Positions 40,085 through 57,891 of a stretch of DNA of 64,000 nt are shown here, in pieces. A model generated the notes under the pieces. It saw only the letters and a list, made by a program, of their open reading frames with translations, was not told the DNA's origin and did no database searches. The stretch lies in NCBI RefSeq assembly GCF_000496755.2, contig NZ_AYKS02000047.1, forward strand, positions 248,001-312,000, read 5' to 3'. Position 1 is the stretch's first letter; each line of letters begins with the position of its first letter. Position numbers and translations under genes: made by a program. The stretch comes from Serratia sp. DD3 (GTDB lineage: Bacteria > Pseudomonadota > Gammaproteobacteria > Enterobacterales > Enterobacteriaceae).

Positions 40085-40846
40085 ATGATAGAAGGCCTTG
40101 ATAAAGATTGTCATTTATTATCAGAGAGTAAACCTAACGAACTCATTAATTCATCTATCAAAAGCTATCTAGAAAAAAAACTAAAAGAGTTTAATAATAT
40201 AAAGTACGCTTATGCCATAATGAATAAAAAGAACCCTGCTGATTTTTCAGTGATTTCAAATAGAACTGAATGGTTTGATTTTTATGTCAATAACAACTTT
40301 CAGTATATCGACCCGGTTTTAGTGACTGCATCACATCGAGTTACCCCATTTTTTTGGGATAAAAACATCATGATTAACTCGGGAATTAAACTGCCAAAAA
40401 TATTTAATATGGCGAAAAGTTATGATGTTACTCATGGTTATACCTTCGTGTTGCATGACCATCTTCATCATCTGGCGGTTTTATCTATTATCATAGATAG
40501 CCATTGTGATAATAGTGTTGAACCGCTGATTAGAGATAAGCAAGATAGTTTACAGCTATTGTTGATGAAAACGCATGAAAAACTCATTAACACTTCTCAA
40601 GAACTGAATAATGCTAACTACTTTGAGAAAATAAACCAGAGAAATTTCTTTTCCCCTCGCGAGAATGAAATTATTTATTGGGCAAGCATGGGGAAATCCT
40701 ATCAGGAAATTGCACTTATCTTAGGAATTAAACTCACCACAGTAAAATTTCATATTGGAAATGCAGTTAAAAAGTTAGGCGTTAACAATGCCAAGCATGC
40801 CATAAGGCTCAGTGTTGAATTGCAGCTAATCAGGTCGGTTCGCTAA
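40085..40846 (+). CDS. LuxR-type regulator with autoinducer-binding domain (solo)
   Basis: 253 residues. N-terminal autoinducer-binding domain, ~20-165: EWFDFYVNNNFQYIDPVL contains the Trp, Tyr and Asp-Pro that contact acyl-homoserine lactones in TraR/LasR, and TPFFWDKN a further conserved Trp. C-terminal LuxR helix-turn-helix, ~188-245: FSPRENEIIYWASMGKSYQE and KLTTVKFHIGNAVKKLGVNN. Resembles the YenR/SmaR group of enterobacterial receptors. No luxI-type synthase lies within the window, so it is a solo here. Notably AT-rich compared with glyQS, suggesting transfer. Followed by a hairpin terminator. Confidence 0.85.
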   Translation: MIEGLDKDCHLLSESKPNELINSSIKSYLEKKLKEFNNIKYAYAIMNKKNPADFSVISNRTEWFDFYVNNNFQYIDPVLVTASHRVTPFFWDKNIMINSGIKLPKIFNMAKSYDVTHGYTFVLHDHLHHLAVLSIIIDSHCDNSVEPLIRDKQDSLQLLLMKTHEKLINTSQELNNANYFEKINQRNFFSPRENEIIYWASMGKSYQEIALILGIKLTTVKFHIGNAVKKLGVNNAKHAIRLSVELQLIRSVR

Positions 40847-40917: not shown

Positions 40918-40950
40918 ATGCATAAAAATATACTCTCACCCCTTCTTTGA
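40918..40950 (+). CDS. Possible 10-residue mini-ORF before the sRNA-like unit
   Basis: ATG at 40918 with GGAAGAGG eight bases upstream encodes MHKNILSPLL then TGA. Its last codons form the left arm of the hairpin at 40933-40961. The combination of a strong RBS, short peptide and overlapping hairpin is leader-like, but no biosynthetic gene follows and there is no codon run that would suggest attenuation. Low confidence. Confidence 0.2.
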   Translation: MHKNILSPLL

Positions 40951-40961
40951 TTGGGTGAGAG
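40933..40961 (+). terminator. Hairpin after the luxR-type gene
   Basis: CTCTCACCC (40933-40941) and GGGTGAGAG (40953-40961) are perfect 9-bp complements around an 11-base loop. No T-run follows; the next bases AAACTGTTGACA carry the -35 box of the sRNA-like unit, so the hairpin may insulate it. Confidence 0.55.
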
Positions 40962-40967
40962 AAACTG

Positions 40968-40996
40968 TTGACAGGCACTCTATGATTTACAATAAT
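40968..40996 (+). promoter_or_regulatory. Sigma-70 promoter of sRNA-like unit 1
   Basis: Consensus -35 TTGACA (40968-40973), 17-base spacer, -10 AATAAT (40991-40996). Predicted start near 41003. The spacing and -10 region are conserved in unit 2 although the -35 differs. Confidence 0.65.
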
Positions 40997-41002
40997 GTTT
41001 AA

Positions 41003-41063
41003 GAATTTTCCCTGGTGTTGGCCAATTTGGCACCTGATCCTTTAATCGGGATCAGTTTTTTTT
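41003..41063 (+). ncRNA. sRNA-like unit 1 (predicted ~60-nt transcript)
   Basis: Short transcription unit: promoter at 40968-40996, a 5' single-stranded part ending TTTTCCCTGG, a short hairpin region (GGT, GCC / GGC, ACC at 41014-41034) and an intrinsic terminator CTGATCC-8-GGATCAG (41034-41055) followed by eight T. It contains no ORF. 58 bases (41005-41062) are identical to unit 2 at 42610-42667, and alignment without gaps continues upstream into the promoter with fewer matches. I know no named sRNA with this sequence. Alternatives: a mobile terminator-bearing repeat, or terminator of a longer transcript. Confidence 0.55.
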
Positions 41064-41344
41064 GCTTAAAATTCTTGTTATTGTTGTTACGCACTAACGA
41101 TAAAGTTTTTTGTTACTGAATGATAGTTATACTAAAGTACAGTCACCCACTATACTTTTTCGGTAACAGGCCCGCATCAGGCACCGTACCAGCGTTTGTG
41201 GCACCCTATGCCGACTTCAAACTACCAGGTAGTCCTTATCTATGGTGCCTTCCCGCTAAGCCAATCATCAGAAATGGTGCACTAACGCTATATACTCGGG
41301 TCACTGCGTCAGTAAAAAACGAAATAAGAATAAGGAGTATCGGC
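41064..41344. other. Intergenic region before tag
   Basis: About 280 bases between sRNA-like unit 1 and tag. No gene; the frame of tag is open upstream to 41120 but without a conserved product. Promoter for tag expected here; nothing further I can support. Confidence 0.4.
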
Positions 41345-41944
41345 ATGGATAATCAACGTTGCGGTTGGGTTACCGCTGACCCATTATATCTTGAGTACCA
41401 CGATAAAGAATGGGGCACCCCAACCACGGATGCACGCGAACTGTTCGAAATGTTGTGTCTGGAAGGGCAACAGGCTGGCCTCTCTTGGATCACGGTGCTG
41501 AAAAAACGTGAAAACTACCGCCGTGCTTTCCACAATTTTGACCCAACACGTATCGCTGCCATGAACGAACAAGATGTGGCGTTATTGCTGCAAGACAGCG
41601 GGATTATCCGCCATCGCGGCAAGATTGAAGCCATCATTGCCAATGCCAAAGCTTATCAAGCCATGGAACTAGCGGGGGAAAATTTTTCTACCTTTATCTG
41701 GCAATTTGTCGGAGGTAAACCGCAACTGAACCACTGGCAAGCCCTAAACGAAGTGCCCGCTCAAACAGAGATTTCTGTTGCCATGTCCAAGGCATTGAAA
41801 AAGCGCGGCTTCAAATTTATCGGTTCAACCATCTGCTATGCCTTTATGCAGGCCTGCGGCTTGGTAAACGACCATGTTACTGGTTGTTTTTGCCACCCGG
41901 AGAATACCAAAGATGATACGCACCGCAACGTCCGCCGACCTTGA
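41345..41944 (+). CDS. tag: DNA-3-methyladenine glycosylase I
   Basis: 199 residues from the ATG at 41345, which has AAGGAG ten bases upstream (E. coli 187). CGWVTADPLYLEYHDKEWG at the start supplies the zinc Cys and His; DHVTGCFCHPEN near the end supplies the other two. GLSWITVLKKRENYRRAF and IIRHRGKIEAIIANAKAY are the helix-hairpin-helix core. Removes 3-methyladenine from alkylated DNA. Overlaps yiaC by 32 bases. Confidence 0.95.
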   Translation: MDNQRCGWVTADPLYLEYHDKEWGTPTTDARELFEMLCLEGQQAGLSWITVLKKRENYRRAFHNFDPTRIAAMNEQDVALLLQDSGIIRHRGKIEAIIANAKAYQAMELAGENFSTFIWQFVGGKPQLNHWQALNEVPAQTEISVAMSKALKKRGFKFIGSTICYAFMQACGLVNDHVTGCFCHPENTKDDTHRNVRRP

Positions 41945-42344
41945 CGTGCTGATGGTGCTCTGGCTAGAAAGCACCACCCGTGCTCATCCCTTTGTGCCAT
42001 CTGACTATTGGCAGCAAAGTGCTCAACTGGTACGGGATAACTATTTGCCCCGGGCTAAAACTTGGGTGTATCTGCATAACCAGCAAATTGTCGCTTTTAT
42101 CAGCATATTGGATGAGCGCTTTATTGGCGCTCTGTTTGTTGACCATCACTTTCATGGCAAAGGGGTGGGGGCAGCATTAATGGCCTGCGTACAACATCAT
42201 TATCGTTGGCTTAGCCTGGAAGTGTATGAGGATAACCAACGAGCTTGCGCCTTCTACTACAAACAAGGGTTCCGCGAAATGCAGCGTCTGTTTAACCAAG
42301 AAACTCAAGCCCATACGCTGATCATGAATTGGCCTGCTACTTAA
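41913..42344 (+). CDS. yiaC: GNAT acetyltransferase YiaC
   Basis: 143 residues from the ATG at 41913 inside the end of tag. GNAT fold with the acetyl-CoA loop HFHGKGVGAALMAC and C-terminal NQRACAFYYKQGFREM. Resembles E. coli YiaC (146 residues), reported to acetylate protein lysines. The tag-yiaC order and overlap are the same as in E. coli. Confidence 0.88.
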   Translation: MIRTATSADLDVLMVLWLESTTRAHPFVPSDYWQQSAQLVRDNYLPRAKTWVYLHNQQIVAFISILDERFIGALFVDHHFHGKGVGAALMACVQHHYRWLSLEVYEDNQRACAFYYKQGFREMQRLFNQETQAHTLIMNWPAT

Positions 42345-42502
42345 TTTCAATAAACTGGCATGGGTCGGTCCGTAGATTGATCGATTAGGATAGGATGAAC
42401 TTGAATGAACTGAGCTGGCAGAGGTTGATCACTCCCGTAAAACAACCCGCTATTCTTCCCGTTTTGTGATTGATATCATATTTTTCTCTTCTGTCACTTT
42501 TT

Positions 42503-42520
42503 AATGGGATCGGTTCCATT
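42503..42520. promoter_or_regulatory. LacI-family-like operator palindrome
   Basis: AATGGGATCGGTTCCATT: seven of nine positions pair around a central CG, the usual layout of LacI/GalR-type operators. Lies about 53 bases before the -10 of sRNA-like unit 2 (-35 region begins 42573). No LacI-type regulator is encoded in the window, so the partner is unknown. Confidence 0.4.
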
Positions 42521-42607
42521 TATGGTGGCGATACTGATAACAGTGGCAATATTTCCAGCTTAATCTCAAAAACTCACAGGCAATCTGTAAGTTACAACAG
42601 TGTTTAA

Positions 42608-42667
42608 TCATTTTCCCTGGTGTTGGCCAATTTGGCACCTGATCCTTTAATCGGGATCAGTTTTTTT
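42608..42667 (+). ncRNA. sRNA-like unit 2 (sibling of unit 1)
   Basis: Same structure as unit 1 at +1605: -35-like CTCACA (42573-42578), 17-base spacer, -10-like AACAGT (42596-42601), then 58 bases identical to unit 1 from 42610 to 42667, including the CTGATCC/GGATCAG terminator (42639-42660) and seven T. The promoter is weaker than unit 1 and may need an activator or be differently regulated. Upstream of 42573 the two loci differ, so this is not a large segmental duplication. Confidence 0.5.
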
Positions 42668-42760
42668 GCTCCTAAGCAATGATAGTAAAAGCTAAACTGA
42701 ATGATGTTATCAGTCGCCACTCCGCTCCCCCTATATATTCATCGCCATTCAAGTCGCAAC

Positions 42761-42774
42761 GGTACCCGGGTACC
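42761..42774. promoter_or_regulatory. Perfect 14-bp palindrome upstream of ghrB
   Basis: GGTACCCGGGTACC is fully self-complementary, 60 bases before the ghrB start and roughly 20-25 bases before a TTATAG -10-like element. Dimensions fit a sugar-acid repressor of the LacI/GntR type, in keeping with the ketoaldonate-reductase role of GhrB; the regulator is unknown. Confidence 0.45.
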
Positions 42775-42834
42775 CTGGTTCACACTAATTAATTGATTTA
42801 TTATAGCTATATCGTTCTCTCGTTGGAGTTTTTA

Positions 42835-43818
42835 ATGAAGCCTTCAGTCATATTGTATCGGAGTATTCCTGCCGACCTGCATCAGCGGCTGGACAAGCAC
42901 TTCACGGTACATGCTTTCGATGATTTACCCCCAGATAATACCCCTGCGTTTGAGACTGCATTACAACAAGCTGAAGGGATTATCGGTTCTGGCGGCAAAA
43001 TTGATGAAGCCTTTCTGCAACGGGCACCTAAACTACGTGCTGCTTCAACGATTACAGTAGGTTACGATAACTTTGACCTCGAAGCGCTTAATGCCCACCA
43101 AGTATTATTGATGCATACCCCGAGCGTATTAACAGAAACCGTGGCCGATACCATCATGGCCTTGATGTTGGCCACGGCACGTCGCGTGGTTGAAGTCGCC
43201 GAGCGAGTGAAAGCGGGTGAGTGGCAAAATAACATTGGGCCCGAGTGGTATGGTGTTGATGTTCATCATAAAACTATTGGCATCCTCGGTATGGGGCGCA
43301 TCGGGCTGGCATTGGCACAACGGGCACACTTAGGCTTTAACATGCCAGTGTTATATAACGCCCGCCGCACCCATCAACAGGCCGAACAAAATTTCAACGC
43401 CCGCCGTTGCGATCTTGATACTCTGCTGGCTGAGTCAGATTTTCTCTGCATCACACTCCCGTTAACTAGCGAAACCTTCCATATGATCGGCCATGAACAG
43501 TTGGCGAAAATGAAGAAAAGCAGCATTTTGATCAATGCAGGGCGAGGGCCGGTGGTTGATGAGCAAGCGCTTATCGAGGCCTTGCAGAACGGTACTATTC
43601 ACGCTGCCGGGTTGGATGTTTTTGAGCAAGAACCGTTATCGGTGAATTCACCACTACTGCAATTGCCCAATGTGGTTGCTGTGCCCCATATCGGTTCTGC
43701 CACTCATGAAACCCGCTATGGCATGGCTGAATGTGCTGTGGATAACCTGATTGCCGCACTCACAGGCCAGGTAACAAAAAATTGCGTTAATCCCCATTTA
43801 CTGATTAACCCCTATTAA
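42835..43818 (+). CDS. ghrB: Glyoxylate/hydroxypyruvate/2-ketogluconate reductase
   Basis: 327 residues from the ATG at 42835 (GGAG ten bases upstream); E. coli 324. D-2-hydroxyacid dehydrogenase family: NAD(P) loop [14 protein letters not shown], catalytic Arg in [10 protein letters not shown], Glu in DVFEQEPL and His in [10 protein letters not shown]. Reduces 2-ketogluconate, glyoxylate or hydroxypyruvate with NADPH. Monocistronic; the next 200 bases to avtA hold its own promoter region and a T/A-rich stretch. Confidence 0.92.
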
Positions 43819-56496: not shown

Positions 56497-57891
56497 CTAT
56501 GACGACAATGTTCTGATTAAATTGGAAAAATCTTCTTTGATGTCGTGACTTTCTTCACGCAGCTGCTCAATTTTCCGGCAGGCGTGCAACACCGTGGTAT
56601 GGTCGCGGCCACCAAACGCATCGCCGATTTCTGGCAAGCTGTGGTTGGTGAGTTCCTTTGACAATGCCATCGCCATCTGGCGCGGGCGAGCAACGGAACG
56701 GGAACGCCGCTTCGACAGCAGATCCGCTACTTTTATTTTATAATACTCTGCCACCGTCTTTTGAATATTATCGATAGTGACCAGCTTTTCCTGCAACGCC
56801 AGTAGATCGCGCAACGCTTCACGCACGAAATCAATGGTAATGGCGCGGCCAGTAAAATTAGCATTGGCAATCACCCGGTTCAACGCCCCTTCCAGTTCAC
56901 GCACGTTGGAACGTAGACGTTTAGCGATAAAGAACGCCACTTCACCCGGCAAACGAATATTGTTTTCATCTGCCTTTTTCATCAGGATCGCCACGCGGGT
57001 TTCCAGCTCTGGTGGTTCAATTGCCACCGTCAGGCCCCAACCAAAGCGAGACTTCAAACGATCTTCCACCCCGTTAATCTCTTTAGGATAACGGTCAGAA
57101 GTGAGGATGATCTGTTGGTTGCCTTCCAACAACGCGTTAAAAGTATGGAAAAACTCTTCCTGCGAACGCTCTTTATTGGCAAAAAACTGAATGTCATCGA
57201 TCAGCAACGCATCCACCGAACGGTAGTAGCGCTTGAATTCTTCAATCGCGTTATTCTGCAACGCCTTAACCATATCCTGCACAAAACGTTCCGAGTGCAT
57301 ATAAACCACTTTGGCATTGGCTTTACGCGCCATGATGCCATTGCCCACCGCATGCAACAGGTGAGTTTTACCCAAGCCGGTTCCACCATACAGGAAGAGT
57401 GGGTTATAAGCCCCACCAGGGTTATCTGCCACTTGCCGAGCCGCAGCGCGCGCCAGTTGGTTCGACTTACCTTCAACGAAGTTATCGAAAGTATGTTTGG
57501 GGTTAACATTGGAACGGTAAGAAAGCTCGGGTGGCGGTGCGGCATTATCCCAACTGTGACGAGAAGGTGCCGCAGTACGGGCCACTGGGGCTGCCGGTGC
57601 ATTGTTGACGCTGGCCGTAGCCGCCTGACTTATCGTTCGTGTCAGAGGTTTACTGCCCACCTCAAAACGCAATAGTGGCACATCAGTCCCACAAAAATCA
57701 TTAAGCAGCCCATTGATATTGTTTAAGTACTTATCGCGCACCCAATCCAGCACAAAACGATTGGGCGCATACAGCGCCAGAGTATTGTCACTCAGTTCCG
57801 CCTGTAATGGGCGTATCCACATACTAAATTCTGTGGCTGGTAACTCATCCTGCAATCGGGCAAGGCACTGCTGCCAAAGCGAAAGTGACAC
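56497..57891 (-). CDS. dnaA: Chromosomal replication initiator DnaA
   Basis: 464 residues from the GTG at 57891 (E. coli 467, also GTG), with GGAG six bases before it; an ATG four codons upstream is possible but overlaps that Shine-Dalgarno. Domain [17 protein letters not shown]; variable linker ~85-130; AAA+ domain III with Walker [14 protein letters not shown] and Walker [11 protein letters not shown]; domain IV ending with the DnaA-box-binding signature [15 protein letters not shown]. Initiates replication at oriC; oriC itself is not in the window. First gene of the operon and probably autoregulated through the boxes upstream. Confidence 0.98.

Follow-up and report, generated by a model that had tools for sequence, protein, structure and literature searches.

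ArcZ-like small RNA units, one with a probable antisense partner, at a luxR locus of Serratia sp. DD3

The 64,000-nucleotide stretch of Serratia sp. DD3 contig NZ_AYKS02000047.1 analysed here (hereafter, the window) carries on its plus strand a gene for a LuxR-family regulator (40085..40846; Autoind_bind PF03472 and GerE PF00196 domains), tag, encoding 3-methyladenine DNA glycosylase I (41345..41944; TIGR00624 above cut-off), and a gene for a YiaC-like N-acetyltransferase (41913..42344; NF007853 above cut-off) that we take to be yiaC. The regulator is akin to EsaR/ExpR/YenR-type proteins and matches a Serratia sp. S1B protein at 85% and a Yersinia enterocolitica protein at 72%; this similarity suggests that it may belong to the apo-active EsaR/YenR type. 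No convincing match to luxI was found within the window. Two short, closely similar units frame tag and yiaC: unit 1 (40971-41062) sits in the glyQ-luxR-tag locus and unit 2 (42576-42667) in the yiaC-ghrB junction (42345-42837).

Each unit is 92 nt long, and the two are 91% identical at an offset of 1,605 bases, with all 8 mismatches in the first 34 positions and the last 58 positions identical (58/58; Fisher p = 2e-4). An earlier note on this DNA had described such twins, identical over their last 58 bases, ending in terminators with 7-8 T and devoid of coding potential, and each of these points is borne out: the alignment reproduces the twin arrangement, both units end in an 8-pair stem followed by 7-8 T, and none of the open reading frames of at least 60 aa in the window overlaps unit 1 or unit 2. 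The observation of two units is thus confirmed as real and not due to chance, and the interpretation given to them then is partly supported. The putative unit 1 RNA (41001..41063, plus strand), a mini-ArcZ of about 60 nt with a predicted start near 41003, contains the 16-nt seed TTTCCCTGGTGTTGGC (41007..41022, plus strand) and an intrinsic terminator (41034..41063, plus strand) called by the terminator scan and backed by covariation, while the unit 2 RNA (42606..42667, plus strand) consists of the same 58 bases, with the seed at 42612-42627 and the terminator from 42639. The seed 16-mer has two exact matches in the window and five with up to 3 mismatches, 0.71 being expected. In the 2-kb region, 8 terminator-like sites are listed (some of them overlapping) against 2.0 expected, promoter-like sites show no enrichment (4 against 4.0 expected), and single-sequence folding of the units is unremarkable (z ~ -1.4).

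The promoter of unit 1, TTGACA-17-AATAAT (40968..40996, plus strand), scores 11/12 in the promoter scan, in agreement with the consensus TTGACA noticed before, and its ATTGACA and TAATAAT are mostly kept in aligned relatives. A promoter had been proposed for both units; at unit 2, however, the equivalent region (42573..42601, plus strand) is degraded to CTCACA-17-AACAGT and absent from the hits of the consensus promoter scan, and with such hexamers the promoter would therefore be weak or in need of help. The palindrome reported upstream of unit 2 is present, although imperfect: AATGGGATCGGTTCCATT (42503..42520; 7/9 pairs), a possible operator, ends 53 bases before the -35-like hexamer. The proposal of one RNA under two controls hence agrees with an identical RNA part behind a diverged promoter part, and is weakened by the poor promoter of unit 2; it also overlooked the lux box that lies downstream of unit 1, together with a probable promoter of opposite direction. 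Near unit 2, the matrix scan found no significant lux box. On the simplest reading, unit 2 is a duplicate that was kept for its RNA and shifted to another control, and an antisense RNA could act on its product in trans; it may also be silent or recently copied over.

At the glyQ-tag place, one unit each is present in eight relatives that share the surrounding tag, yiaC and glyQ genes. The DNA searched in them contained no further structured unit after yiaC, so unit 2 has so far been seen in this genome alone. In 5 of the 8 (L097, L102, L126, L155 and L160) luxR is oriented divergently to the unit, with luxI beyond luxR in 4 of these 5 (not found in L097); no luxR was found in the fetched DNA of the glyQ-tag locus for L157, L161 and L163. 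The window luxR points at the unit and no luxI was found in the window, the same locus of relatives holding convergent luxI-luxR pairs. Among the downstream stretches fetched from relatives, only L254 gave a ghrB match, and this match does not lie directly behind yiaC.

In a relaxed Rfam search both units match ArcZ (RyhA/SraH, RF00081), at positions 64-95 only and with 17.6 bits; the gathering threshold being 66 bits, they are therefore not members of RF00081 by Rfam's rule. Within this match the ArcZ seed UUUCCCUGGUGUUGGC is aligned to the units without any difference, the seed of unit 1 covering RF00081 positions 64-79 (16/16), which corrects the earlier statement that no named sRNA has this sequence. 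Besides the seed, the units share with ArcZ a short hairpin behind it, a U-tailed terminator, of the sort present in trans-acting Hfq sRNAs, and the size of the processed RNA. They differ from it in the absence of the long 5' part, in a promoter of their own near the cleavage point, in the sequences of hairpin and terminator (GGCCAA in the units, GGCGCA in ArcZ) and in their link to luxR. The arcZ gene lies near arcB, whereas the neighbours here are glyQ, luxR and tag or yiaC and ghrB; neither the arcB neighbourhood nor the long precursor is found at the units. The arcZ copies inspected read GGCGCA, with one exception (L113, GGCACA), and the units read GGCC, GGCT or GGCA.

ArcZ is reported to be cut by RNase E, at sites of the consensus RN-WUU, to a 56-nt 3' part that is the sole form active on targets, and 330 of 335 mapped ArcZ interactions are reported to go through the seed (PMC11331407). 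The bases AAGAATTTTCCC before the unit seed contain GA-ATT, which by comparison with this consensus is a putative cleavage site. The -10 of unit 1 ends 10 nt ahead of the seed; transcription from its promoter would begin close to where ArcZ is cleaved and yield some 60 nt of RNA, so the active half would be made directly. In an alignment of 46 distinct units, 90.1% of cells are paired and 8 of 11 pairs have changes on both sides; none of 500 shuffles reaches the observed covariation of the whole structure, and slid versions pair at no more than 44%. The first hairpin alone covaries weakly. As the seed was the search bait in collecting the units, its invariance in the alignment is partly by construction. 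Structure, covariation and conservation speak for the sibling small RNAs supposed earlier, which the units appear to be. Multicopy sibling sRNAs such as Qrr, OmrA/OmrB and GlmY/GlmZ are comparable in combining similar RNAs with diverged promoters; to our knowledge they are not ArcZ mimics, and we know of none coupled to an antisense RNA in the way considered below. The words "paralog" and "copies" do not occur in the 2024 review of ArcZ (PMC11331407).

The unit pattern TCCCTGGTGTTGGCH occurs in 73 of 392 genomes of the family, against 2 of 392 for the reversed control. A luxR gene lies within 1.5 kb of 49 of 66 terminator-bearing units and of 1 of 46 matches without a detected terminator, as counted on 112 refetched places of 113 with an automatic terminator rule that misses some longer terminators, and with copies from related genomes that are not all independent; 17 terminator-bearing units have no luxR inside 1.5 kb. 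One genome may hold arcZ and several units, as does G297 with arcZ and two.

Two copies within 1.6 kb, the existence of phage-borne units and a more distant genome (G692) with 10 matches of the pattern on several contigs of its 3.6 Mb would suit a mobile or dispersed terminator-bearing repeat. Such an origin is nevertheless very improbable. The seven genomes of the genus of G639 contain none to two structured units each (structure judged by eye) and not the dozens of dispersed copies by which, according to the earlier note, a repeat would be recognised; moreover, the unit keeps the same glyQ-tag place in the eight relatives, and promoter and RNA parts diverge unequally (8 mismatches against 0). 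One of the matches in G692 (L085-L094) is linked to luxR (L085), and several others are nearly identical to each other. In G553, two near-identical units (L143, L144) lie about 10 kb apart, each with its own luxR. Among viral contigs the 16-mer was found in 49 stretches; 36 of them show a run of six T no more than about 85 bases away, and the remainder seem to be truncated or to have arisen by chance. Phage or prophage contigs of IMG/VR (L204, L223, L232, L243, L247) carry units that combine the ArcZ seed with a T-run, and a lux-box-like site lies at +141 to +148 in 5 of 26 distinct viral units. Two viral units gave no match among named phages, and unit 1 gave none in plasmids or E. coli.

The lux box downstream of unit 1, AGTTATACTAAAGTACAGTC (41125..41144), lies 116 bp past the seed and scores 12.8 with a symmetric matrix built from five boxes of loci that have luxR downstream, a value equalled by no more than 1 of 200 mononucleotide shuffles. 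An identical box is found in G639 and G297 (L097, L102). Of the 18 glyQ-tag or luxR-upstream loci, which played no part in building the matrix, 11 contain a box with p <=0.05, in each case between +103 and +117 relative to the seed, one more has a box at p = 0.055, and six have none (L157, L161 and L163, without luxR, and L181-L183, where luxR is present); of 26 luxR-downstream loci, 11 have a significant box, five of these being the training sites, and 15 have none, loci from related genomes being non-independent in these counts. The significant boxes of luxR-linked loci are confined to +103 to +126. A search for lux boxes upstream of the units gave nothing consistent, and the box lies downstream. 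A significant lux-box-like site also accompanies three units with no luxR found nearby, L083, L189 (G001) and L135 (G019), and a borderline one (p = 0.06) accompanies L082, from the same genome as L083 (G448); LuxR control in trans is therefore possible.

To the left of the box, a -10-like TATYGT on the minus strand is mostly conserved in relatives, where AACRATAA is mostly kept at this place; the window has the putative leftward -10 TATCGT (41097..41102, minus strand), with a start expected near 41090. This -10 and the lux box point to an RNA antisense to unit 1; with an inverted repeat added, they delimit a putative transcript of about 150-170 nt (40925..41090, minus strand). This repeat, CTCTCACCC..GGGTGAGAG (40933..40961), just upstream of the unit 1 promoter, is terminator-like for a leftward RNA, with TATATTTTTATG next on the minus strand. 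The minus strand of 40920-41091 folds with z = -3.42. The -10/start region of unit 1 (40987-41010) is partly an inverted repeat of 41064-41090, behind the terminator, and would form a long stem in the antisense fold. The consensus promoter scan does not include the leftward promoter among its hits, nor does the terminator scan include the repeat at 40933..40961. By eye, equivalent inverted repeats of other sequence are seen in several relatives and are not seen in L157 and L163. As a general antisense terminator the repeat was rejected, its T-run being poor, by eye, outside the window and L160; we therefore call it terminator-like in the window only.

The box might instead serve tag or be the relic of a former luxR promoter, in which case there would be two ArcZ-mimic sRNAs and no antisense partner. 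Such an arrangement fits the position of the window box 200 bp upstream of tag, the boxes standing in front of luxR at luxR-downstream loci and the silence of the consensus scan about a leftward promoter, and we hold it to be unlikely but worth keeping in mind. It agrees poorly with L097 and L102, which share the window's box although the next long ORF to the right of it is convergent, so that the output best shared by the box positions is an RNA running leftward over the unit, and with the mostly conserved leftward -10 and the narrow range (+103 to +126) to which the significant boxes of luxR-linked loci keep. It is also conceivable that function resides in the minus strand alone; the conserved block would then be an RNA of the YenS/EsaS type and the plus-strand unit its by-product. 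Lux box and leftward -10 are conserved alongside the unit, YenS and a similar RNA of P. stewartii have been reported, and the antisense RNA folds well (z -3.42) compared with the units alone (z ~ -1.4). Yet the T-run, the -35/-10 and the ArcZ identity are all on the plus strand, 17 terminator-bearing units have no luxR inside 1.5 kb, G-T cells outnumber A-C cells only mildly (18 to 10) as a sign of wobble asymmetry and a sense RNA is reported in P. ananatis (PMC6749038). In the aligned L157 and L163, moreover, promoter, seed and terminator are kept while neither the lux box nor the upstream inverted repeat is present, and the plus-strand unit therefore stands alone. We regard a minus-strand-only function as improbable.

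Transcripts from both strands, as the preferred reading with sense and antisense RNAs would have it, are reported in P. ananatis, where two Hfq-dependent RNAs near eanIR, pPAR237 and pPAR238, overlap in part on opposite strands; both are plentiful at low density and drastically reduced at high density (PMC6749038). The published primers were mapped on locus L142, six without mismatch and two with one; pPAR237 has the same direction as the homologous unit and pPAR238 the opposite one, its 5' end lying past the seed on the lux-box side. The resemblance consists in a homologous unit near luxR-luxI genes with sense and antisense RNAs; on the other hand, pPAR237 is reported as 191 nt, longer than the unit, with its forward primer at -105 to -88 from the seed, and a likeness to ArcZ goes unmentioned in the available part of PMC6749038. 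YenS of Yersinia enterocolitica is reported as 165 and 105 nt, or as 169 nt, sizes close to the length proposed for the antisense RNA, an agreement that is suggestive and not proof. In the reports on YenS and EsaS a LuxR-type regulator activates an RNA or promoter adjoining luxR: in the absence of signal, EsaR turns on PesaS, the promoter opposed to PesaR (PMC13365800). A conserved lux box next to luxR, a trait of this type, is found at unit 1, and the RNA driven from it is putative. The reported target of YenS is yenI, a difference from the units, whose seed has no general pairing to luxI.

At luxI and luxR starts, the seed pairs hardly better than expected by chance (p <=0.05 at 4 of 35 luxI and 5 of 46 luxR starts), and cis-targeting of these genes was rejected as a general mechanism. 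The strongest pairing of the seed with a neighbouring luxI start is seen in L081 and L084 (-20.8 and -19.5; p 0.00 and 0.02), and the window luxR leader has one 8-nt match to the seed (p = 0.05). Pairing with the rpoS leader is significant in 1 of 5 relatives over 600 nt; when the search is limited to 160 nt, without shuffle control, the best site lies at -107 to -109 in 4 of 5, which we take to be the known ArcZ zone. As this pairing is mostly non-significant, rpoS is only a candidate target. flhD was found in 4 of 5 relatives searched, and the three tested have a site for seed pairing in the flhD leader (-108 to -91; p 0.03, 0.11 and 0.03); E. coli ArcZ is reported to bind flhD closer to the start codon (PMC11331407). 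The antisense RNA predicted for G297 would pair fully with the L102 unit of that genome; with G297 ArcZ it would reach -53.3, where shuffled sequences average -22.7 (0/200).

On balance, these data incline us towards an ArcZ mimic that is under LuxR control and is opposed by an antisense RNA of the YenS/EsaS type, unit 2 standing outside the cis control. Both units would encode short sRNAs that copy the seed, hairpin and terminator of the processed 3' part of ArcZ and would be made straight from a promoter set near the ArcZ cleavage point; as Hfq-bound RNAs they would regulate the targets of ArcZ in trans, the flhD and rpoS leaders being candidates. At 41125-41144 a LuxR-type regulator would control a leftward antisense RNA over unit 1, comparable to pPAR238, which by analogy with apo-active EsaR and YenR might be made in the absence of autoinducer. 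The antisense RNA would capture the mini-RNA and in part ArcZ, and accumulating signal would free ArcZ-type regulation; unit 2 would supply a second, identical RNA from a different or weak promoter, beyond the cis control and possibly within reach of the antisense in trans. The seed, the covarying structure, the recurrence, the luxR linkage and the lux box can be read from the sequences themselves, and they describe an ArcZ-mimic family tied to luxR genes, for which an antisense partner is probable.

Several observations run against this explanation. Both Pantoea RNAs drop together at high density, where a plain switch with antisense off and sense on predicts steady or rising sense RNA, so that the model rests on the ratio or on processing. 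The antisense terminator is poor in most relatives, the leftward promoter lies outside the consensus scan, and the window luxR is inverted and without luxI relative to its relatives. The Rfam score is far under threshold, and 15 of 26 luxR-downstream loci, as well as L181-L183, have no significant box.

A wider reading, which we put forward tentatively and consider rather doubtful, is that RNAs of the YenS/EsaS type antagonise a cis-encoded ArcZ mimic, and through the seed ArcZ itself, so that the quorum-sensing LuxR proteins in Enterobacterales would steer the ArcZ regulon, including motility and RpoS, by a sense/antisense sRNA switch, and that temperate phages have adopted the module, some with a lux box. 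EanR is reported to lower rpoS expression (PMC7883899), and yenS to stimulate swarming over and above its action on yenI (PMC4773443). Both effects would be in keeping with a sponge for ArcZ-type RNAs, which may offer a reason for them; this link is one that we draw ourselves. If the reading is true, one of the largest sRNA regulons of enterobacteria would have a direct link to quorum sensing, and the active half of a processed sRNA would have been copied many times under its own promoter. No report combining an ArcZ mimic, luxR linkage and an antisense RNA was found in the open-licence papers searched; the pieces are of known kinds. Elsewhere in the window, positions 57310-57390 match Rfam AsdA, the antisense RNA of dnaA mRNA, with 78 bits.
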